DNA of 64,000 nucleotides, taken from contig NZ_LMUE01000003.1 of the NCBI RefSeq assembly GCF_009766065.1, positions 106,809 through 170,808 on the forward strand. Direction: 5' to 3'. A program made the position numbers and the translations under genes. Of this stretch, positions 48,146 through 57,083 are shown one piece after another (within the stretch, counting starts at the first letter, position 1; every line of letters begins with the position of its first letter). Under the pieces are notes generated by a model. The model ran no database searches. It was not told where the DNA came from and saw nothing but the letters and a program-made list of their open reading frames with translations. This DNA is from Dyella sp. S184 (GTDB lineage Bacteria; Pseudomonadota; Gammaproteobacteria; Xanthomonadales; Rhodanobacteraceae).

Positions 48146-49849
48146 TCATTTCGTCGCGCTGGTGCCGGATTTGTCGTGCGGCATCATCGCCTCGCGCTTG
48201 GCGCGGAACGGGCTGTCGGGATACCACTGCGGCCACACGCCGACCTGGCTGAGGTGCTGACCCAGTTCATACAGCGCCTGGGTATCCTCGAGGATGCCGG
48301 AGTAATCCCAGTTCGGATTGAACACGTCATTCGGCGTGTGATAGTGGTGCGCCGTATAGTCATCCGCCCCCTTCTGCCCCGCCGCTTTTCCGCCATCGAG
48401 CAGATCGAGACCCGAGCTGGCCAGCATCGCCGGCACGCCGGCCTTGGCGAAGCTGAAATGATCGGAACGGAAGTAGAAGCCGTTCTCCGGCGTGGTTTCC
48501 AGCGAGGTCACCCGACCCTGCGTCTTCAGCACATCGGCCAGCATGTCCTCCAGTTGCGACTGGCCCATGCCGATCACCGTCATGTCACGGGCACGGCCGA
48601 TGATCGGCAGCGCATCGACCGCGATATCGGCCACCGTCTTGTCCAGCGGAAACACCGGCTTGGCCGCGTAATACTGCGACCCGAGCAGGCCCGACTCCTC
48701 CATCGTGGGCATGAAGAACAGCACGCTGCGTGGCGGCGGCGCCTTCTGGTGGGCGAACGCATCGGCCAGCTCCAGCAGCATGGTCAGGCCGGTGCCGTTG
48801 TCGATCGCACCGCTGAAGACCTGGTGTCCCTTGCGCGTGGGATCGGTGCCCAGGTGATCCCAGTGCGCGGTGAAGATCACTGCCTCGTCGGGCTTCTTGC
48901 TGCCCTTGACCATCGCCACCACATTCTTCGATTCGAGATGGCCGATCTTGTTGCTCAGGCTGATCGAGGCTGTGGCATCCAGCAACACCGGTTTGAAGCC
49001 CGGCTTCGCCGCCGCCTTTTCCAGCTGGGTGAAGTCGAGGCCGGCGTCGGCAAACAGTCGCGTGGCGGCATCGCGGGTCAGCCAGCCGGCCACCGGCAGG
49101 CGTGGCGACGGGTCGACGCTGGCGGGCAGGCTCAACTGCGGCCCGCTGCCGCTGTTCTGCAGCACGCTGAACGGATAGCCGGCTGCCGCGTCGCTGGTAT
49201 GCACGATGAAGCACGCAGCTGCGCCCTTCAGTGCCGCCTCCGCATACTTGTAGGTCCAGCGGCCGTAGTAGGTCATCGCGCGACCGTTGAACAGTTTCGG
49301 ATCGCCGGTGGCAAAGCCGGGATCGTTGACCAGCACGATTACCGTCTTGCCCTTCACGTCGACGCCCTGGTAATCGTTCCAGTGCCAGTTCGGCGCATCG
49401 ACGCCGTAGCCCATGAACACCACCGGCGAGTTCTTCAGATCGACCCGGGCCTTCGCCTGCAGTGTCTCGGCCATCATGTCGGTGCGATAGGCGAACTTCG
49501 CCGGCTTGCCGTGCGCCGTGATGTCCAGCGTCACATCGGTATTCAGCAACTGGGTGGAGTCGGCCGGCACCGCTTGGTACCAGGAGCCATGGTTGCCTGG
49601 TTGCAGACCCATGCGCTTGAACTGCTCGACCAGCCAATCGGTGGTGCGCTGCCCGCCGATCGTGCCGGGCTTGCGGCCGCCAAACGCGTCCGAACTGAGC
49701 GTCTTGTCGAACTGCGCGAAATCCGCGGCATTGATCTGCGACGCCAGCGCGACGGCCGGCGGATTCGCGGCAGCAGGTGGCGCCGCCGCCATCAACGAGC
49801 TCGCGCCCGTACTCAGGGCGACGAGGAGAGCAGTAGTCAGGGCGCGCAT
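48146..49849 (-). CDS. Secreted M28 family aminopeptidase-like metallopeptidase
   Basis: 567 residues from MRALTTALL, with GGAG seven bp upstream and a signal peptide ending MAAA. A PA-like insert (about residues 130-300) interrupts the peptidase domain. Zinc ligands and catalysts: FTAHWDHLG (His), GAIDNGTG (bridging Asp), MPTMEESGLLGS (catalytic Glu pair), VDALPI (Asp) and AHHYHTPND (His). Typical of di-zinc M28 aminopeptidases in Xanthomonadales. The frame to 49978 lacks a signal at its start, so it is not used. Confidence 0.92.
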   Translation of the reverse strand: MRALTTALLVALSTGASSLMAAAPPAAANPPAVALASQINAADFAQFDKTLSSDAFGGRKPGTIGGQRTTDWLVEQFKRMGLQPGNHGSWYQAVPADSTQLLNTDVTLDITAHGKPAKFAYRTDMMAETLQAKARVDLKNSPVVFMGYGVDAPNWHWNDYQGVDVKGKTVIVLVNDPGFATGDPKLFNGRAMTYYGRWTYKYAEAALKGAAACFIVHTSDAAAGYPFSVLQNSGSGPQLSLPASVDPSPRLPVAGWLTRDAATRLFADAGLDFTQLEKAAAKPGFKPVLLDATASISLSNKIGHLESKNVVAMVKGSKKPDEAVIFTAHWDHLGTDPTRKGHQVFSGAIDNGTGLTMLLELADAFAHQKAPPPRSVLFFMPTMEESGLLGSQYYAAKPVFPLDKTVADIAVDALPIIGRARDMTVIGMGQSQLEDMLADVLKTQGRVTSLETTPENGFYFRSDHFSFAKAGVPAMLASSGLDLLDGGKAAGQKGADDYTAHHYHTPNDVFNPNWDYSGILEDTQALYELGQHLSQVGVWPQWYPDSPFRAKREAMMPHDKSGTSATK

Positions 49850-49974
49850 CGGGGAACTCCAGCATCGGGGGACGAACTGCTGTTTTAGCGCGACCACCTG
49901 CCGCTGTCCATGCATGGCATGCCAGAGAGACCCGCAATGACCCTGACGCAAGTTCTCGGCAACACGCGGAGGAA

Positions 49975-51753
49975 TCAAGCCATTTTAAGAAAAGCTTCCG
50001 GGCTGTCATTCGCGCTGACGCGATTGCGGCCCTCGCGCTTGGCCCGGTACAGCGCCTCATCGGCGTGCATCAGCAAATCACGCAGTTCGTAACCTGAGTG
50101 GACCGAGCTGGAAACGCCGAAACTGGCAGAGATGGGTACACCGGGAGCATCCTCACCCGCAGCAGCAGTCGCAATGGCCACGCGGATCTGCTCGGCACGG
50201 GCGATGGCCTGATCCAGCGAACACTCGGGCAGCAGGATGCCGAACTCCTCACCGCCGAGGCGCCCAAAAATATCGGTCGAACGAAGATGCGCCTTGCAGG
50301 CTTCGACGGCGCGCCGCAGCACGCGATCACCCACGGCGTGGCCATGGGTATCGTTGATGACCTTGAAATGGTCCAGATCGATCAGCACCAGGCAGGCTTC
50401 GCGCGACGATTTACGGCAGTAATGCAGCTGCAGCTCAGCCTCATTGACGAAATGCTGCCGGTTGTAGATGCCGGTGAGGCCATCACGGCGAGCAAGTTTC
50501 ATGAAACGCAGTTGCGAACGCTTGATCTTGTAAGTCCACAAGGCAATCGACGCCAGCAACAGCACCAGCAGCACGATATATAACCGGCTGGTTTCCGTCG
50601 CCTTCTTGGCAAGCTTCTGCTGCAGCGTGAGGATCTGGTTCTGCTTGTTCAGCGTGTCGATCTGCAGCTTTTTTGCCAGTACCTGCTGCTTGACGGTCTG
50701 GAAGGCTAGCGCCTTTGCGCTCACTTCGTTCAGGTAGCCCTTGTCGGCCGCCATGTATTTTTCATGGTAGGTCAGCGCGGCATCCACGTCGCCCTGCTTC
50801 TTGCTGATCAGATAGAGCAACTCATAGGCGCTGGTCCGCGACTTGGTGAACTCATGCTTGAGGCCGCCATCAACAGCAGCAAGGGCGTACTGTTGCGCCA
50901 GGGTCAACTCGCCTTCGTTCCAATACGCCTGCGCCAGCAAGGAATCAAACTGCGAGACCAGCTCTGGATAGCCGATGTGCAAAACCTCGGCGTAGTGCTT
51001 CTGCAAAAGCTTGATCGCCTCGGCTGATTGACCATGTTGAACATCAAAGCCTGCCACGTAGAGGCGGGCCCCGTTGGCATAAAGGAACTCTGATGCCTTG
51101 CTGCAGGCGTCAATGGCTTCGCGGGACTGCTCGTCGCTCGCGAACTTCCCACTCTCATACAGCGATTGGACCTGGAAAACCCTGGCTTTGCAGCCACCAT
51201 CACCACCCGGGTTTTCCCGGAGCATCTGGTTCGCATAGGTCAAGCCAAGATCGTATTGACCTGCATCGTTGTAGAGCGTTGCAGCAACACCGAGAGCCTG
51301 TATGCGCGCATCCTTCTCGGTAATCTGCGGTAGCTGATCCAGTAATTGGCTTATCTGCGCAAATGCTTCCTCGTAGTGGGATCCGTTGGAAAGCATGTTC
51401 ACCAGGGTCGTGCCCACACGAAACCGCAACGTGGCATCCGTGGATTCCGCGATGACCGCATTCAACAGCGGTGTGGCAGCCTCGTAATCACCTTGATAAC
51501 TGACCTCCCATGCCTGGAGGTAACGCAGACGCATGCGCTGCTGCGGGGAAAGCGTGGTCACCTCTGCACCGAGACGCTTCATGAGTTGCACGAACTCGGG
51601 ATGATCCGACGTCTTGACGCTGTCCGCCTGCTTGAGCAATTGCGCAGGATCGCCAATGATGGGCACGGCCGCAACGGCCGTGCCCATCAGCATGACCACG
51701 AGCAGGATCCAGCCGGCATGGCATGCCCGGCGCTGGCTGCCCGAAGAAAACAT
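49975..51753 (-). CDS. Membrane diguanylate cyclase with periplasmic repeat domain (DGC2, paired with borosin precursor A2)
   Basis: 592 residues from the ATG at 51753. Signal or anchor helix (WILLVVMLMGTAVAAV), about 360 residues of TPR-like helical repeats predicted outside the membrane, a coiled segment (VKQQVLAKKLQIDTLNKQNQ), a membrane helix near 400, then GGDEF. Active motif GGEEF at about 500-504 with an inhibitory RxxD site (RSTD) at 491-494, so it should make c-di-GMP under product control. TAG of the precursor gene, TTG and this ATG are contiguous, so the two are translationally coupled. The GGDEF half is nearly the same as DGC1; the sensor half is more diverged. Confidence 0.92.
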   Translation of the reverse strand: MFSSGSQRRACHAGWILLVVMLMGTAVAAVPIIGDPAQLLKQADSVKTSDHPEFVQLMKRLGAEVTTLSPQQRMRLRYLQAWEVSYQGDYEAATPLLNAVIAESTDATLRFRVGTTLVNMLSNGSHYEEAFAQISQLLDQLPQITEKDARIQALGVAATLYNDAGQYDLGLTYANQMLRENPGGDGGCKARVFQVQSLYESGKFASDEQSREAIDACSKASEFLYANGARLYVAGFDVQHGQSAEAIKLLQKHYAEVLHIGYPELVSQFDSLLAQAYWNEGELTLAQQYALAAVDGGLKHEFTKSRTSAYELLYLISKKQGDVDAALTYHEKYMAADKGYLNEVSAKALAFQTVKQQVLAKKLQIDTLNKQNQILTLQQKLAKKATETSRLYIVLLVLLLASIALWTYKIKRSQLRFMKLARRDGLTGIYNRQHFVNEAELQLHYCRKSSREACLVLIDLDHFKVINDTHGHAVGDRVLRRAVEACKAHLRSTDIFGRLGGEEFGILLPECSLDQAIARAEQIRVAIATAAAGEDAPGVPISASFGVSSSVHSGYELRDLLMHADEALYRAKREGRNRVSANDSPEAFLKMA

Positions 51754-51756
51754 CAA

Positions 51757-52065
51757 CTAGGCCGCCGGAATCACGGCGTGAATCCTTTCACGCTCGAGAG
51801 TGCTGTCTGGCTCCCTGGACGGGGTCTCCTCGTCCTCGTCACCTTCCTCTTCTTCAGCTGGCTCTTCGCCTGGTAACAAATAGCCGCAGGCGGGAACATG
51901 TCCCAACAACGTTTCCAGCTGTGCCGGGTCGTTGGCAAGAATGGCCGCCTGCAACTCCGGGGCAATCTCCGCACTGGTCAGCGCCAGCTCTACCTCATCC
52001 TGCGATGCATGACGCAACTGCGCGTCCTGTCCCATCCTTTCCAGAAAATCGATGACGTCCGTCAT
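51757..52065 (-). CDS. Borosin-type RiPP precursor A2 (SonA-like)
   Basis: 102 residues. The N-terminal MTDVIDFLERMGQDAQLR matches the borosin-binding domain of SonA (FFTQLGQDAQL in Shewanella oneidensis), a helical domain docked by the N-methyltransferase. A second helix pair (APELQAAILANDPAQLETLLG) leads into a predicted core VPACGYLLPGEE. After it comes a very acidic stretch (EEPAEEEEGDEDEE) and a polar tail. It shares with precursor A1 the pattern P-x-C-x-Y-x-x-P-G. It has its own promoter upstream and abuts DGC2. Which residues are methylated is not known. Confidence 0.88.
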   Translation of the reverse strand: MTDVIDFLERMGQDAQLRHASQDEVELALTSAEIAPELQAAILANDPAQLETLLGHVPACGYLLPGEEPAEEEEGDEDEETPSREPDSTLERERIHAVIPAA

Positions 52066-52085
52066 TGCCTGCCCCCTGACAGTTG

Positions 52086-52125
52086 ATTGTTTTGAAACAC
52101 ACTGCGATGGTCAAAGATTTGACCA
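52086..52125 (-). promoter_or_regulatory. Promoter for A2-DGC2 with palindrome over the -35 box
   Basis: On the minus strand TTGACC (52114-52109), 17-bp spacer, AACAAT (52091-52086). The -35 lies inside an 18-bp palindrome TGGTCAAA-GA-TTTGACCA (52108-52125) with perfect 8-bp arms. The surrounding 60 bp is AT-rich (23 of 60 G/C by hand count). This suggests a repressor- or activator-controlled start about 14 bp before the ribosome site of precursor A2. Confidence 0.65.
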
Positions 52126-52360
52126 GATAGGTTCGACAAAGGCCCCTATCCCCTCGGATATATCGAATTGTGGCATATCACGGGTGCCTACCGGCGACAG
52201 CTTTGTTTCCAACATATCGCCGGCAATAAGCGCTGGGCCAACATGGTGTTCCATTCCGCCAAGCTCGTTCAAAAGCCGTATGCCGTTTGCTTCACCATAG
52301 CAACGCCTGAAAATCGAATGTCGGCGACGCCGCCAGCAGCCTCACCGGAAATTCAACCTG
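52126..52360. other. Gene-free spacer between DGC1 and the A2 promoter
   Basis: With the promoter this makes a 295-bp gap, the largest in the borosin locus. No open frame with a ribosome site, no strong hairpin and no T-tract was found, so it is unclear whether transcription from DGC1 ends here or reads through. Confidence 0.5.
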
Positions 52361-54148
52361 TCAGGCACATTCCGGGGAATCGGCCACGTTAACCCGATTG
52401 CGGCCTTCGCGCTTGGCCTGATACAGCGCCTCGTCGGCATGGATCAGCAACTGGCGCAGTTCGTAGCCGGAATGAGCCGCGCTGGAGATGCCAAAGCTGG
52501 CGGAGATGGGGACGCCAGGAGCGTCCTCGCCAGCCGAGGCGGTCGAAATCGTCAGGCGGATCTGCTCGGCCACGACAAGAACCTGTGCCAGCGTGCACTC
52601 GGGCAGCAGGATGCCGAACTCCTCACCGCCGAGGCGCCCGAAGATGTCGGTTGAACGCAGGCAGCCCTTGCAGGCCGCAACGGCGCGCTGCAACACGCGA
52701 TCACCCACCGCATGGCCATGGGTGTCGTTGACGGCCTTGAAATGATCCAGGTCGATCAGCACCAGACAGGCGTCTCGCGACGATTTCCGGCAGTACTGCA
52801 ACAGCAACTCGGCCTCGTTGACGAAATGCTGTCGGTTGAAGATGCCGGTAAGACCATCGCGTCGGGCCAGCTTCATGAAGCGCAGCTGCGAGCGTTTGAT
52901 CCGGTAGGTCCATAGGGCAATCGCTGCCAGTACCAGCAGCAGCAGGACGATATACAACCGGCTGGCCAACGTTGCCTTTTTGGCGAGCGCCTGCTGCAGC
53001 TGGAGGATCTGATTCTGCTTGTTCAGCGTCTCGATCTGCAGCTTGTTCGCCAGCACCTGCTGTTTGACGGTCTGGTAGGCGAGCGCCTTGGCGCTGACGT
53101 CAGTCAAGTAGCCCTTGTCGGACGCCACGTATTTTTCGTGATAGGCGAGCGCCGCGCCCAGGTCGCCTTGCTTTTTCTCAGCCTGGTACAAAACCTGATA
53201 AGCACCCGCTGTTGTCGCGAGATATACACCGCCAAAGCCCCTGTTGGTTTCAATGACGCGAAGCGCATACAACATCGCTGACTTGGTATCGTCGGATTTC
53301 CAGTAAGCCTGCGCCAGCAATTCGTCAACATCGGAAATAAGCGGCGGAAAGCGCTTGCGCTGAACTTCTACGTAGCTGTTTTGAAGCAGGTTGATGGCTT
53401 CAGTAGGCATCCCACGCTGCATGTCAAACTTCGCGACAACCGTTTTGAACATGTCAGCGATCAGGACATCGCCAGCGCGACTACAGGCAGCCTTGCCGTC
53501 GCTGATTTGCTCACCCACGGCCTGCAGCTGCCCCGTTTGAAGAAGCGGGCCAAGCTTGTCAAACCAGCCGATGCAGGCCGCCTTCGGGCTATCGCTTTCC
53601 TTGATCAACAACTCCGCATAACTGACAGCCAAATCGTATTGCCCAGCCTCGAAGTACATTTGCGACGCAGCACCAAGAACCTGTATGCGAACCGACTTTT
53701 CCGTTATTTGCGGAAGTTTTTCCAGAAGTGAACTCAATAGTCCGAACGCCTCCCCATATCGAGATTGCGTCAGCAACAAATCTACTTCGGTTGCGCCAGC
53801 CCGAATCGAGAGAACGGGATCCACAGACTGATTCGCGATCACCTGCATCAATGGAATGGCCGCCTTGAAGTCCCCACGGAAGGCGATTTCCCGTGCATCA
53901 AGATAACGCCGGTGCAACTCCTGCTGCGGCGAAAACTTCAACTTGCTGCCATCAAGCCGCCGCATGAGTACTGAGAACGCACTGGGATCAGACGACTCCA
54001 GGCCATCAGCCTGCTTGAGGAGTTGTGCAGGGTCTTCGGGCACAGGCGCAGGTCGCAATTCGACCGCGACAGCCGCCTCTGCCAGTGGAAGCAGCACGAT
54101 TGCCAACACGGTGCAGAGCAGCCAGTGCCTTGTACCCGGCCCGGACAT
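52361..54148 (-). CDS. Membrane diguanylate cyclase with periplasmic repeat domain (DGC1, paired with borosin precursor A1)
   Basis: 595 residues. N-terminal signal or anchor (LLCTVLAIVLLPLAEAAVAV), TPR-like helical repeats to about 360, coiled segment (VKQQVLANKLQIETLNKQNQ), membrane helix near 400 (LYIVLLLLVLAAIALWTY), then GGDEF. GGEEF lies at about 507-511 with RSTD I-site at 498-501. Paralogue of DGC2: linker, membrane helix and cyclase are almost identical, whereas the sensor repeats are conserved only in outline. It begins 44 bp after precursor A1, in the same order as the A2-DGC2 pair. The ligand of the outer domain is unknown. Confidence 0.92.
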   Translation of the reverse strand: MSGPGTRHWLLCTVLAIVLLPLAEAAVAVELRPAPVPEDPAQLLKQADGLESSDPSAFSVLMRRLDGSKLKFSPQQELHRRYLDAREIAFRGDFKAAIPLMQVIANQSVDPVLSIRAGATEVDLLLTQSRYGEAFGLLSSLLEKLPQITEKSVRIQVLGAASQMYFEAGQYDLAVSYAELLIKESDSPKAACIGWFDKLGPLLQTGQLQAVGEQISDGKAACSRAGDVLIADMFKTVVAKFDMQRGMPTEAINLLQNSYVEVQRKRFPPLISDVDELLAQAYWKSDDTKSAMLYALRVIETNRGFGGVYLATTAGAYQVLYQAEKKQGDLGAALAYHEKYVASDKGYLTDVSAKALAYQTVKQQVLANKLQIETLNKQNQILQLQQALAKKATLASRLYIVLLLLVLAAIALWTYRIKRSQLRFMKLARRDGLTGIFNRQHFVNEAELLLQYCRKSSRDACLVLIDLDHFKAVNDTHGHAVGDRVLQRAVAACKGCLRSTDIFGRLGGEEFGILLPECTLAQVLVVAEQIRLTISTASAGEDAPGVPISASFGISSAAHSGYELRQLLIHADEALYQAKREGRNRVNVADSPECA

Positions 54149-54192
54149 TTACCGGGCCACCCACATCCGTACGAGAACCGGGACTATCAAAG

Positions 54193-54489
54193 TCATTTTT
54201 TCGGCCGGTTTGACGGGCTTTCCTTGACCTTACCTTTGTCATCCTTGCCTTTGTCGTCCTTTTTCTTTTTTTCCTCGCCCTCGTCTTCCTTGCCTGGATC
54301 GATATAGCAGCAGTAAGGCCCCTTCCCCAGCATCACTCCAAGTGCTTGTCCATCCTTTGCAAGAATGACATCGCGCAGCTTTGCATCGATGAACTGCCCC
54401 GCCAGAACGGCGGCGACGTCCTCCGAAGAAGCGTAACGCAGCTGTGCATCCTGACCCACGCTTTCAAGAAAATCGATGACGTCGAACAT
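54193..54489 (-). CDS. Borosin-type RiPP precursor A1 (SonA-like)
   Basis: 98 residues from MFDVIDFLESVGQDAQLRYA, with AGGGG eight bp before the ATG. The opening matches precursor A2 and the SonA borosin-binding domain. Helical part to about residue 55, then a predicted core GPYCCYIDPGKED with adjacent Cys residues, then an unusual Lys/Asp/Glu tail (EEKKKKDDKGKDDKGKVKE). In SonA the N-methylated residues lie in the segment aligning with YCCYIDPG. The in-frame extension to 54615 overlaps the methyltransferase stop and lacks a ribosome site, so it is rejected. Confidence 0.88.
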   Translation of the reverse strand: MFDVIDFLESVGQDAQLRYASSEDVAAVLAGQFIDAKLRDVILAKDGQALGVMLGKGPYCCYIDPGKEDEGEEKKKKDDKGKDDKGKVKESPSNRPKK

Positions 54490-54563
54490 TTGATGATCCC
54501 CTTGTGTAGATTGTTGCCACCCAACCACTTGCCTCGTACAACGATCCGGAACGTTCTCAAAAA

Positions 54564-54580
54564 CGTCGATGGCCTCGACG
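54564..54580 (-). terminator. Hairpin with T-run between borosin methyltransferase and precursor A1 (attenuator?)
   Basis: On the minus strand CGTCGA-GGCCA-TCGACG followed at once by TTTTTG, located 16 bp after the methyltransferase stop. A 6-bp stem with a U5 tract is a weak intrinsic terminator. It could uncouple enzyme and precursor levels within the operon. Confidence 0.5.
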
Positions 54581-54595
54581 GCGCAACACGCTGCG

Positions 54596-55426
54596 TCAGG
54601 CTGTACAACTGGCATCGCGAACGGTATCAGTCATCGCTCGGTCCAGCACATCCAGCCGCTTCCTCATCTCGTGATTCACCTGCATGGATCGCGCGGGTGG
54701 GACCACCACCGTATCGGCCATGCCAATCTCCGCCTTTGGCAGATCGCCCAGCGCCACCCGACTGATGCTGGCCTGCTGGATCGGCAGCGTCGCCGTGCGA
54801 TAGATGATCAGCTCATGTTCCAGCGGGTAGTCGCGCGCCAGCACTTCGACCAGCAACTCGCGGTAGGCCGCGCCGGTGCTGAAACGCGCCAGCGACTGGT
54901 CGCCGACGATACCCACCTGCCACAGCACCAGGTAGGCGGTCGGGTCGATCCGGCGCTGGTAGAACAGTAGCTGGCTGGCCTCGTAGTGCTGGCAACCGAA
55001 GCGGCCTGGGTCGATGCCGAGATCAGCGTAAAGGCAATCCTCGGCGGAAATGCCCGGCTCCATATGCGCCGGATAACCCTCGCTGCGGGCCGCCTCGATT
55101 GACTTGTGCGGCGCCCAGGCGAACACCCCGGGATGGCCGTAGAACACCCCGCAGACCTTCTTGCCCGCGCGTACCTCGGCGAGGATGGCCTCGACCATCT
55201 GCCGGTAGGTCTGCATGCGCGACGTGCCCTCGCTGTAGTAGGGCTGCAGGCTGCGCACATCCGCGTGCATCCGCTGCAACCACAATTCCACGACGCCGTC
55301 GGAGACCCCTGCAAACACCACGTCGGACTGCTCGATATGGCTGCGCGCCAGCGGCCCGAGGTGGGAGCCAAGCGTCATGCCGAGGCCCACGCAGACCAAG
55401 CTGCCAGTGGAATTTGCTGAATTCAT
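54596..55426 (-). CDS. Borosin peptide-backbone alpha-N-methyltransferase (SonM-like, tetrapyrrole methylase fold)
   Basis: 276 residues from MNSANSTGSLVCVGLG. Tetrapyrrole methylase fold with LVCVGLGMTLG (SAM-binding Gly loop), VFAGVSDGVVELWLQ, the Tyr/Arg block YYSEGTSRMQTYRQMVEAIL (63-82), FYGHPGVFAWAPHKSI (95-110), EPGISAEDCLYADLGIDP (123-140) and HYEASQLLF (147-155). These blocks match SonM of Shewanella and, more distantly, fungal OphMA, enzymes that methylate backbone amides of a peptide. There is no fused precursor, so it works on separate substrates: the two SonA-like proteins downstream. An in-frame Met at 55480 would add 18 residues but lies beside a strong hairpin. No cobalamin or sirohaem gene is nearby. 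Confidence 0.9.
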   Translation of the reverse strand: MNSANSTGSLVCVGLGMTLGSHLGPLARSHIEQSDVVFAGVSDGVVELWLQRMHADVRSLQPYYSEGTSRMQTYRQMVEAILAEVRAGKKVCGVFYGHPGVFAWAPHKSIEAARSEGYPAHMEPGISAEDCLYADLGIDPGRFGCQHYEASQLLFYQRRIDPTAYLVLWQVGIVGDQSLARFSTGAAYRELLVEVLARDYPLEHELIIYRTATLPIQQASISRVALGDLPKAEIGMADTVVVPPARSMQVNHEMRKRLDVLDRAMTDTVRDASCTA

Positions 55427-55486
55427 TTGTTTGCTTGCTCGTCGCTGATCTGAAGTCGAGTTGTCTTGCAGCACACGCATATCACT

Positions 55487-55550
55487 GCCCGGGAAGCATC
55501 CCGGGGCATTGACTCATGCTGGTGAAATCCCCTGCTCTACGTAGCAGACA
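55487..55550 (-). promoter_or_regulatory. Structured 5' leader of the borosin operon
   Basis: Minus-strand leader with two hairpins: CTGCT-ACGTAG-AGCAG (around 55532-55547) and a near-perfect 9-10-bp stem TGCCCCGGGA/TCCCGGGCA with a short loop (55487-55509). A weak promoter-like pair (TTGCCC, 16 bp, GATAAC) lies upstream at 55608-55581. No known riboswitch consensus was recognised. Confidence 0.4.
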
Positions 55551-55636
55551 CCCGTGCCTCCCACGTCTCAGTTCGACCACGTTATCCCTTAAGGCAAGAC
55601 AGGGGCAAGCACTGTCGCTCCTGCGCCTTTCCACCG

Positions 55637-56245
55637 CTAGCTTTCTGCCAGCGACCAGTGCCCGAGGAGCTGATACGCACCCTGCCCGACCACGTGATGG
55701 ACCAGCGCAAACTCTGCCACCGGCCACGTCACAGGCCCGACCTCCACGGTCTCGAGCATGGTGCCATGGCTATAGGCCAGCGTGACATGCGGTGTGAAGC
55801 TGCGTTCGAGGCGCGCACCCTGTCCAGCCAGCGCCAGTGTCTTTCCCAGCGTAAGCCATAGCTGCTGCAGCGGCGCGGAAACCTCGGCAGCTTGCAGCAC
55901 GCAGGGCGGCTCGCGGCCACGGAAGCTGGCGGCGCTGTCCAGCGTCCACGCAAACGGCGCGAGGCTTACCTTGTCGGCAGCCGCCACAGCGGCATCGACC
56001 AGGGATGGCCGCAGCGCGGCGTGATCGCCCAGGAAACGCAGGGTGGCGTGATAGCGGTCCGGGTGGATCCAGCGAGCGCGCAATCCGGGGCGTGCGGCCT
56101 TGAGCCCGGCAGCGACGGCGGCCAGCCGCTCGCGAGTGCTGGCGTCGGGCATCAATGCGAAGAACAGCCGGTGCACTTCGGTCGAGGCGATGCCGCCGAG
56201 CAGATCGGACTGGTGGGTGTCAGGCAGGGTTTGTCGAATGGCCAT
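55637..56245 (-). CDS. thpR: RNA 2',3'-cyclic phosphodiesterase (LigT type)
   Basis: 202 residues with the two H-x-T/S-x signatures of the 2H family: RYHATLRFLGD and FTPHVTLAYSH, about 85 residues apart. These enzymes open 2',3'-cyclic phosphates or ligate tRNA halves in vitro. The core VHRLFFALMPD is where most homologues begin, so a GTG at 56176 is an alternative start that would remove 23 residues. Same strand as the upstream SDR, 31 bp apart. Confidence 0.9.
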   Translation of the reverse strand: MAIRQTLPDTHQSDLLGGIASTEVHRLFFALMPDASTRERLAAVAAGLKAARPGLRARWIHPDRYHATLRFLGDHAALRPSLVDAAVAAADKVSLAPFAWTLDSAASFRGREPPCVLQAAEVSAPLQQLWLTLGKTLALAGQGARLERSFTPHVTLAYSHGTMLETVEVGPVTWPVAEFALVHHVVGQGAYQLLGHWSLAES

Positions 56246-56276
56246 GGATGCTATGTAACACGCCCGGAAGGCGTGG

Positions 56277-57083
56277 CTAGGGTTGCTTGGCTTGCTGTTG
56301 CTTCTGCCGCCCCTTTTTCAGCAGCCCCTCAAGTACCAAAGCGCTCAGGCCGGGGAAGAAGCTGGCCAGCTTGCTGACGAAGCCTCGGCTGGCTGGCAGG
56401 GTGATCTCGAGTGGCGCCTTGGTCAGCGCGTGATCCAGGATGGCCGACACCACTTCCTGCGTGGTCAGCGAGCGGTTGCCGGAGAACGTCAGCGCCGCCT
56501 GGTCGTAGTTGACCTGCAGATCCAGCATCGGGGTCTGCACCGCATCGGGACAAACCACCGTGACCTTGACCCCGGTATCGCGCAGCTCCTGCGCCACCGC
56601 CAGCGTATAGCCGCGCACTGCAAACTTGGACGCGCTATACAAGGACAGCCCGGGGATCGCGGCAATGCCGGCGAGCGAGGCGATGTTGACTATATGGCCG
56701 TGGCCCTGCGCCTTCATCAGCCGTGCTGCTGCGCGCGTGCCGTGGATGGTGCCCTTGGTGTTGATGTCGATATGAAAATCCACCTCTGCGGCGGTGGATT
56801 CGTGGCAATAACCGGGTTTGAGCACGCCAGCTACGTTCACCAATACGTCGAGCTGGCTCCAGCGCTGCTTCAGCTGATCAAGCAGTGCGTCCCACGCTGC
56901 CGCATCACGCACGTCCAGTGAGGCAATCCACAATTGTTCGGGCGTTGCGGCCGCAGCCTTGAGTGCCTCCATCGGCGCCGGATTGATATCCACCGCACAG
57001 ACGCGTTCGCCGCGCTGAAGCAAGGCCGCGGCCAGTTGCGCGCCAATGCCGGAGGCGGCGCCGGTGACAAGAAAGGTCTTCAT
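56277..57083 (-). CDS. SDR family oxidoreductase
   Basis: 268 residues. TGAASGIGAQLAAALLQRG (nucleotide-binding), LVNVAGVLKPG, IVNIASLAGIAAIPGLSLYSASKFAVRG with the catalytic Ser, Tyr and Lys (S-x12-YxxxK), and VCPDAVQTPM. The C-terminal tail ends in a Gln/Lys-rich stretch. Substrate unknown; resembles short-chain alcohol dehydrogenases annotated near lipid enzymes. Precedes thpR; a REP cluster lies upstream. Confidence 0.9.
   Translation of the reverse strand: MKTFLVTGAASGIGAQLAAALLQRGERVCAVDINPAPMEALKAAAATPEQLWIASLDVRDAAAWDALLDQLKQRWSQLDVLVNVAGVLKPGYCHESTAAEVDFHIDINTKGTIHGTRAAARLMKAQGHGHIVNIASLAGIAAIPGLSLYSASKFAVRGYTLAVAQELRDTGVKVTVVCPDAVQTPMLDLQVNYDQAALTFSGNRSLTTQEVVSAILDHALTKAPLEITLPASRGFVSKLASFFPGLSALVLEGLLKKGRQKQQQAKQP

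Follow-up and report, generated by a model that had tools for sequence, protein, structure and literature searches.

Split borosins have been described in bacteria (PMC8429565, PMC11285071, PMC11395268), and the type IV system of Shewanella oneidensis consists of a methyltransferase, SonM, and a separate precursor, SonA, for which a five-helix leader, a disordered tail, methylation at L63 and I65, and the roles of the SonM residues Y58, R67, Y71, and Y93 are reported (PMC8429565; PDB 7LTC). According to the same paper, no bacterial split borosin pathway had, in 2021, yet been tied to its final natural product. Here we analyze a stretch of 64,000 nucleotides from Dyella sp. S184 (contig NZ_LMUE01000003.1, positions 106,809 to 170,808 of the forward strand; hereafter the window), which contains what is, judged by its sequence, a split borosin locus, likewise with enzyme and precursor encoded separately. 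The minus strand is transcribed in the order M (methyltransferase), A2, DGC1, A1, and DGC2, in which A1 and A2 are putative precursors, each lying directly 5' of a gene for a predicted sensor diguanylate cyclase (A2 of DGC1 and A1 of DGC2). This pairing of precursor and sensor, which recurs in related loci, suggests that the modified peptides may serve as signals and not as ordinary antibiotics.

The methyltransferase and its candidate substrates

The gene M (54596..55426, minus strand) encodes a 276-residue protein of the PF00590 fold, a predicted SonM-like peptide backbone alpha-N-methyltransferase that carries the sequence blocks YGHPGVF, EPGISAEDCLYADLGIDP, and YEASQ. In a phmmer search of the PDB, M matched SonM (7ltc_A) at E = 4.2e-75, with 119 of 252 aligned residues identical, and fungal borosin enzymes at E = 2e-50 to 5e-46 (dbOphM, 2.3e-50). 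The SonM residues Y58, R67, Y71, Y93, F99, and W166 correspond to Y64, R70, Y74, Y96, F102, and W169 of M; E146 and Q167 are also kept, and E173 is replaced with Asp. M differs from SonM at L34, R68, Q178, and I234, the last three being Met, Arg, and Ala, respectively, in this enzyme. A first-pass annotation of this DNA, made from the letters alone, had already called the enzyme SonM-like, which is borne out by the match to SonM and by the retention of the main active-site residues.

Pfam assigns M to TP_methylase (64.2 bits; M scores weakest among the three PF00590 genes of its genome), as would be the case if M were a tetrapyrrole methylase of the CobA/CbiE/CysG type and the small proteins next to it were unrelated. 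However, 25 of the 27 PDB matches to M at E ≤ 0.01 are borosin methyltransferases, the other two being partial matches to a designed protein, and M scores far under the NCBIfam equivalog cut-offs (YabN, 40.4 of 525 bits; cobJ, 22.5 of 246 bits). Moreover, the precursor profile described below matches SonA only. M does not group with cobalamin or sirohaem methylases, and we rule out a tetrapyrrole methylase identity on the PDB matches and NCBIfam scores, leaving it a negligible probability.

The two small proteins, A2 (54193..54489, minus strand; 98 residues) and A1 (51757..52065, minus strand; 102 residues), both carry DVIDFLExxGQDAQLR near the N-terminus, and each would comprise a leader (about residues 1–55), a core (about residues 56–66), and a tail that is charged in A2 and acidic in A1. 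As lone sequences they matched SonA weakly (A1, E = 0.0085; A2, E = 0.22). A profile built from 61 precursors at related loci gave seven matches in the PDB up to E = 1, all of them SonA chains (E = 9.5e-6 to 4.2e-5). A precursor profile picked out A1 and A2 only from the whole genome of the strain; the precursor model had no match among 11461 shuffled open reading frames (ORFs). All 72 precursor domain matches in 55 related loci lie on the strand of M. The SonA-like leaders that the first-pass annotation had recognized on both proteins are thereby confirmed, as is its separation of enzyme and substrates, which occupy three separate ORFs.

Residues 2–64 of A1 align to residues 2–64 of SonA without a gap, and residues 4–63 of A2 are likewise aligned gap-free, with residue 63 opposite the methylated L63 of SonA. 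The alignment places the candidate cores at residues 56–66 of both proteins, namely, HVPACGYLLPG in A1 (51868..51900, minus strand) and KGPYCCYIDPG in A2 (54292..54324, minus strand). AlphaFold2 predicted five helices in residues 2–53 of A2 followed by a disordered tail, with a mean predicted local distance difference test score (pLDDT) of 71.8 (85–91 in blocks over residues 1–50) and a predicted template modeling score of 0.48. Thirteen of the 16 Foldseek matches to this model were SonA chains, but at E values of at least 2.6, so that structural similarity on its own does not reach significance. Neither precursor has a signal peptide, as judged from the sequence.

The leader and core have diverged very differently. 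Among six A1 orthologues (15 pairs), the leaders are 75–98% identical and residues 56–64 only 22–67%, whereas Pro65-Gly66 is fixed; A1 of the window and that of one related locus (L009; loci are cited by our own numbers) share 98% of the leader and 33% of residues 56–64. Pro65 is present in 56 of the 61 relatives, Cys60 in 33, and Cys61 in 38. Since a proline, which cannot be methylated, occupies position 65, the methylation pattern of A1 and A2 would have to differ there from that of SonA. Judged by homology, M very probably methylates the cores of A1 and A2: it would bind the five-helix leader and N-methylate the hydrophobic core at its backbone amides, most likely no later than residues 63–64, because Pro65 has no amide hydrogen.

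Precursors standing alone, with no cyclase beside them, include apparent forms with two tandem cores (the group of L010:6965, L019:6968, L021:5353, L012:7405, and L011:7393), and several of them end in -CA, -EQCA, or -RRA. The precursors of L033, L036, L040, L041, and L042 have a Lys/Ala/Pro-rich repeat tail (KKAPAK) and not an acidic one.

Pairing of precursors with sensor cyclases

DGC1 (52361..54148, minus strand; 595 residues) and DGC2 (49975..51756, minus strand; 593 residues) are each predicted to consist of a signal peptide, a periplasmic tetratricopeptide repeat (TPR) part, a transmembrane (TM) helix, and a cytoplasmic GGDEF domain. Both had been overlooked by the first-pass annotation, DGC1 lying between the two precursor genes and DGC2 beyond the segment that it described. 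The intergenic gaps are 106 nucleotides (M–A2), 44 (A2–DGC1), 295 (DGC1–A1), and none (A1–DGC2), DGC2 starting either at the TTG that adjoins the A1 stop codon or at an ATG at 51753.

The two cyclases are 61% identical across 565 residues. Pfam detected the GGDEF domain of DGC1 at E = 6.8e-42 and the TPR weakly in both proteins; DGC1 has a GGEEF motif and an RxxD I-site. Its AlphaFold2 model (50 sequences; mean pLDDT, 89.4) shows antiparallel helices from residue 40 to 327, a long helix at 330–429, and then the GGDEF domain, and the hydrophobic segments are at 11–27 and 398–414. By a simple window rule, all 59 related sensors have the hydrophobic segment before GGDEF and 53 of the 59 the N-terminal one. 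Foldseek with the cyclase model returned GGDEF-containing proteins among the matches listed (50 of 1500), which are silent on the TPR part. In an alignment of 50 sensors, GGEEF is kept in all, R498 in 44, and D501 in 47. Cys192 and Cys222 of the TPR part are also invariant (50/50), although the helices bearing them belong to the sensor's most variable, with mean identities of 25% and 23% (helix 94–107, 25%). Two invariant cysteines in the TPR part fit a disulfide outside the cytoplasm. The genome of the strain has 24 GGDEF matches, and the TPR part occurs only in DGC1 and DGC2.

To judge how constant the pairing is, we used the 55 related loci, of which 10 were left out for contig ends and 45, with 3.5 kb or more beyond M, were kept. 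In 44 of these 45, M is followed by both a precursor and a TPR-GGDEF protein; in the exception (L056), the cyclase is present and the precursor match is weak (16 bits with a wider model). One precursor was found in 29 loci, two in 12, three in 2, and four in 1. Presence counts over 197 genomes of the family, which do not record adjacency, gave M in 128 genomes and the TPR sensor in 124, with both in 123. The single genome with the sensor only is a draft of 86% completeness, and the five with M only (one genus, 5/5) encode a single protein of 829–893 residues that combines TPR, TM, GGDEF, and M. This fusion occurs as six ORFs in L102–L106, with a precursor upstream, and was confirmed by Pfam in two of the six; in L105 it is in tandem duplicate.

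Moreover, we hand-picked, among the matches listed, 20 cyclases having no listed M nearby. Every one has a precursor directly upstream, at −19 to +36 nucleotides from the start of the TPR model (the frame being broken in L086), and their stretches contain no M match in 17 cases, M in 2, and an M fragment in 1. The retention of the precursor beside cyclases that lack a nearby M indicates that the lasting unit is the precursor with its sensor, and M can, as these layouts suggest, often act from elsewhere in the genome. Thus, the split borosin identity given by the first-pass annotation stands, on both sequence and fold, whereas its unit of one enzyme plus two precursors does not: what is conserved is a precursor with its own TPR sensor cyclase. 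We accordingly rejected the locus as an isolated precursor pair; the cyclases belong to it.

At greater distance, M was found in 9 of 369 genomes of the class and 15 of 398 of the phylum (the two sets overlap). Among 20 neighborhoods outside the family, a TPR sensor is near M in 14 (L069, L070, and L121–L132), and a search for precursors was successful in 13. L124 has M on the opposite strand. The output of the 14 sensors is GGDEF only in 10, a hybrid histidine kinase in three (L069, L131, and L132), and both in L070. In these last four loci, the precursor adjoins a hybrid histidine kinase that has TPR and TM parts as well as receiver domains, indicating that the output varies while the input stays. 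In the closest relative of SonM/SonA among them, L123 (identities of 77% for M and 60% for A), the gene for A is immediately followed by one for a TPR-TM-GGDEF protein, which suggests that the founding Shewanella locus may have the same neighbor. Searching the 369 class genomes for the TPR part, an approach insensitive at such distance, gave three matching genomes, all having M. In L133 (2843–6373), an M-like domain is at the N-terminus of a frame of 1177 residues that has no other Pfam match.

The pairing might simply reflect co-transcription of neighbors with no functional link, and the family genomes are indeed related, so that the counts above are not independent. Nevertheless, it persists in the unlinked copies (20/20), in one gene fusion, and in distant families that use another output domain, which makes a mere co-transcription very improbable.

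As for the surroundings, a gene for an M28-family peptidase whose N-terminus is hydrophobic lies 3' of DGC2 (48146–49978, minus strand); a relative of it is present in 15 of 59 sources, and it could be local help or chance. The M28 peptidase, RNA ligase, short-chain dehydrogenase/reductase (SDR), and other flanking genes were dismissed as constant parts, being found in 2 to 17 of the 59 sources. An Rfam scan of 49500–56300 gave no match up to E = 0.5 and hence no riboswitch for cyclic diguanylate (c-di-GMP) there. The closest named relatives of the locus are in Rhodanobacter genomes, M being 92% identical in Rhodanobacter sp. C01.

A possible peptide signaling system

We propose that a split borosin module has been rewired as a peptide signaling system, a chain of steps that, taken as a whole, we regard as having roughly even chances of being correct. 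After methylation by M, a protease not constantly encoded at the locus would release the core as a methylated hydrophobic peptide, which would enter the periplasm, perhaps passively and aided by its methylation. Backbone methylation is known for conferring stability and membrane passage. The periplasmic TPR of the adjacent cyclase would then bind its own peptide and drive c-di-GMP synthesis by the GGDEF domain, a step to which the gene pairing points. The window would hold two ligand–receptor pairs, A2–DGC1 and A1–DGC2, with one shared methyltransferase.

The divergence of paired copies bears on this proposal. At six loci with two pairs, the copies are 49–67% identical in the leader, 36–50% in the core, 44–68% in the TPR, and 70–96% in GGDEF, as would be expected of paralogous ligand–receptor pairs that share an output. 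Over 54 pairs, the partial correlation of leader distance was 0.42 with TPR and 0.22 with GGDEF, and that of core distance was 0.11 with TPR and 0.23 with GGDEF. Taken together, these distance correlations are mixed and offer weak support at best.

Several observations weigh against the proposal. Coevolution of ligand and receptor should make the core follow TPR over GGDEF, and it does not; close linkage could account for the correlation of leader with TPR, and gene conversion of GGDEF would give the same picture of divergence. Fourteen of the 72 precursors are not beside a cyclase (three more are at contig ends), a second TPR-GGDEF protein without a precursor of its own immediately follows the first in L030, L036, L038, L090, and L121, and no TPR sensor is near M in 6 of the 20 distant neighborhoods (L071–L075 and L133). 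Export is the weakest link of the chain, as A has no export signal and the loci examined share no constant transporter or protease gene. Finally, the fusion of M with the cyclase ties methylation to the sensor but also fits M as a second output.

This last point leads to a different arrangement, in which the TPR senses an unrelated stimulus, the outputs are M and GGDEF (or the kinase), and methylated A is an intracellular effector. M is C-terminal to GGDEF in the six fusion ORFs (five genomes), which places it beside the output domain in the cytoplasm; the lack of a signal peptide in A and the tracking of TPR distances by the leader rather than the core also agree with such an arrangement. Yet A stands beside a cyclase with no M in the stretch at 17 of the 20 picked loci, and its hypervariable part is the core, a better fit for a ligand or product than for an effector domain, so that we consider M as an output rather improbable.

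Alternatively, the locus might produce an ordinary secreted ribosomally synthesized and post-translationally modified peptide (RiPP), such as an antibiotic or a metallophore, under c-di-GMP control, the sensor reading the state of the surface or stress. Hypervariable hydrophobic cores and the tandem cores of some precursors are typical of RiPPs, and M adjoins a gene for an MFS transporter, with no TPR sensor found, in L073 (6398–7312) and L074 (4523–5764). Such a product is not easily reconciled with the absence of a constant transporter, protease, or other tailoring enzyme from the loci examined, with a sensor that stays paired with A even when M is elsewhere, or with the joint divergence of sensor and leader, but not of the output domain, among the copies of a single genome. 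We consider it unlikely, though of appreciable probability.

Returning to peptide signaling, the largest gammaproteobacterial branch of split borosins might constitute, rather than antibiotics, an autocrine or cell-to-cell code of backbone-N-methylated peptides, membrane-permeable through their methylation and read by dedicated periplasmic TPR receptors via c-di-GMP or a phosphorelay, in which one methyltransferase serves several diverging ligand–receptor pairs and the output domain stays alike. This generalization is advanced tentatively, as one falling somewhat short of probable. The gene pairing gives bacterial split borosins a testable job, that is, as ligands of TPR sensors; if true, backbone-modified ribosomal peptides would form a new class of signal, and it would be clear why methylation, with its known effects on stability and membrane passage, is used. 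Two proposed ligand–receptor pairs in a soil-type bacterium allow direct testing of specificity.

Comparison with known systems

An association of borosins with GGDEF is partly known already, since GGDEF is named among the borosin architectures in the legend of an overview figure in PMC11395268. That architecture is possibly the TPR-GGDEF-M fusion of L102–L106 and differs from the window, where separate genes encode M and the cyclases; the available text of PMC11395268 draws no functional conclusion on GGDEF. In the open-licence literature searched, we found no joint report of borosins and c-di-GMP, no report of a RiPP with a diguanylate cyclase, tetratricopeptide, and precursor peptide, and no mention of SO1480. 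The signaling proposal is the bold, testable part of this work, and the locus itself is a variant on the described split borosins.

The window locus shares with SonM/SonA, as far as described in PMC8429565, the active-site residues, the five-helix leader, and an equally spaced short hydrophobic core. It differs in that the single enzyme is accompanied by two precursors, both paired with a cyclase of their own, in the long charged tails, and in cores that end in Pro-Gly where SonA has the methylated I65. The fungal borosins OphMA and dbOphM belong to the same methyltransferase family as M (E = 2e-50 to 2e-46), but have the precursor fused to the enzyme, in contrast to the separate precursors of the window.

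On the sensor side, a TPR reading a small peptide, as proposed for DGC1 and DGC2, is also the principle of the RRNPP peptide receptors. These receptors (PlcR, Rap, and NprR) are cytoplasmic and recognize unmodified peptides. DGC1 and DGC2, though perhaps alike in manner of working, fall outside that group, which is defined by a cytoplasmic TPR with a DNA-binding or phosphatase output: with hydrophobic segments at 11–27 and 398–414 of DGC1, the TPR is predicted to be periplasmic here, and the output is GGDEF.

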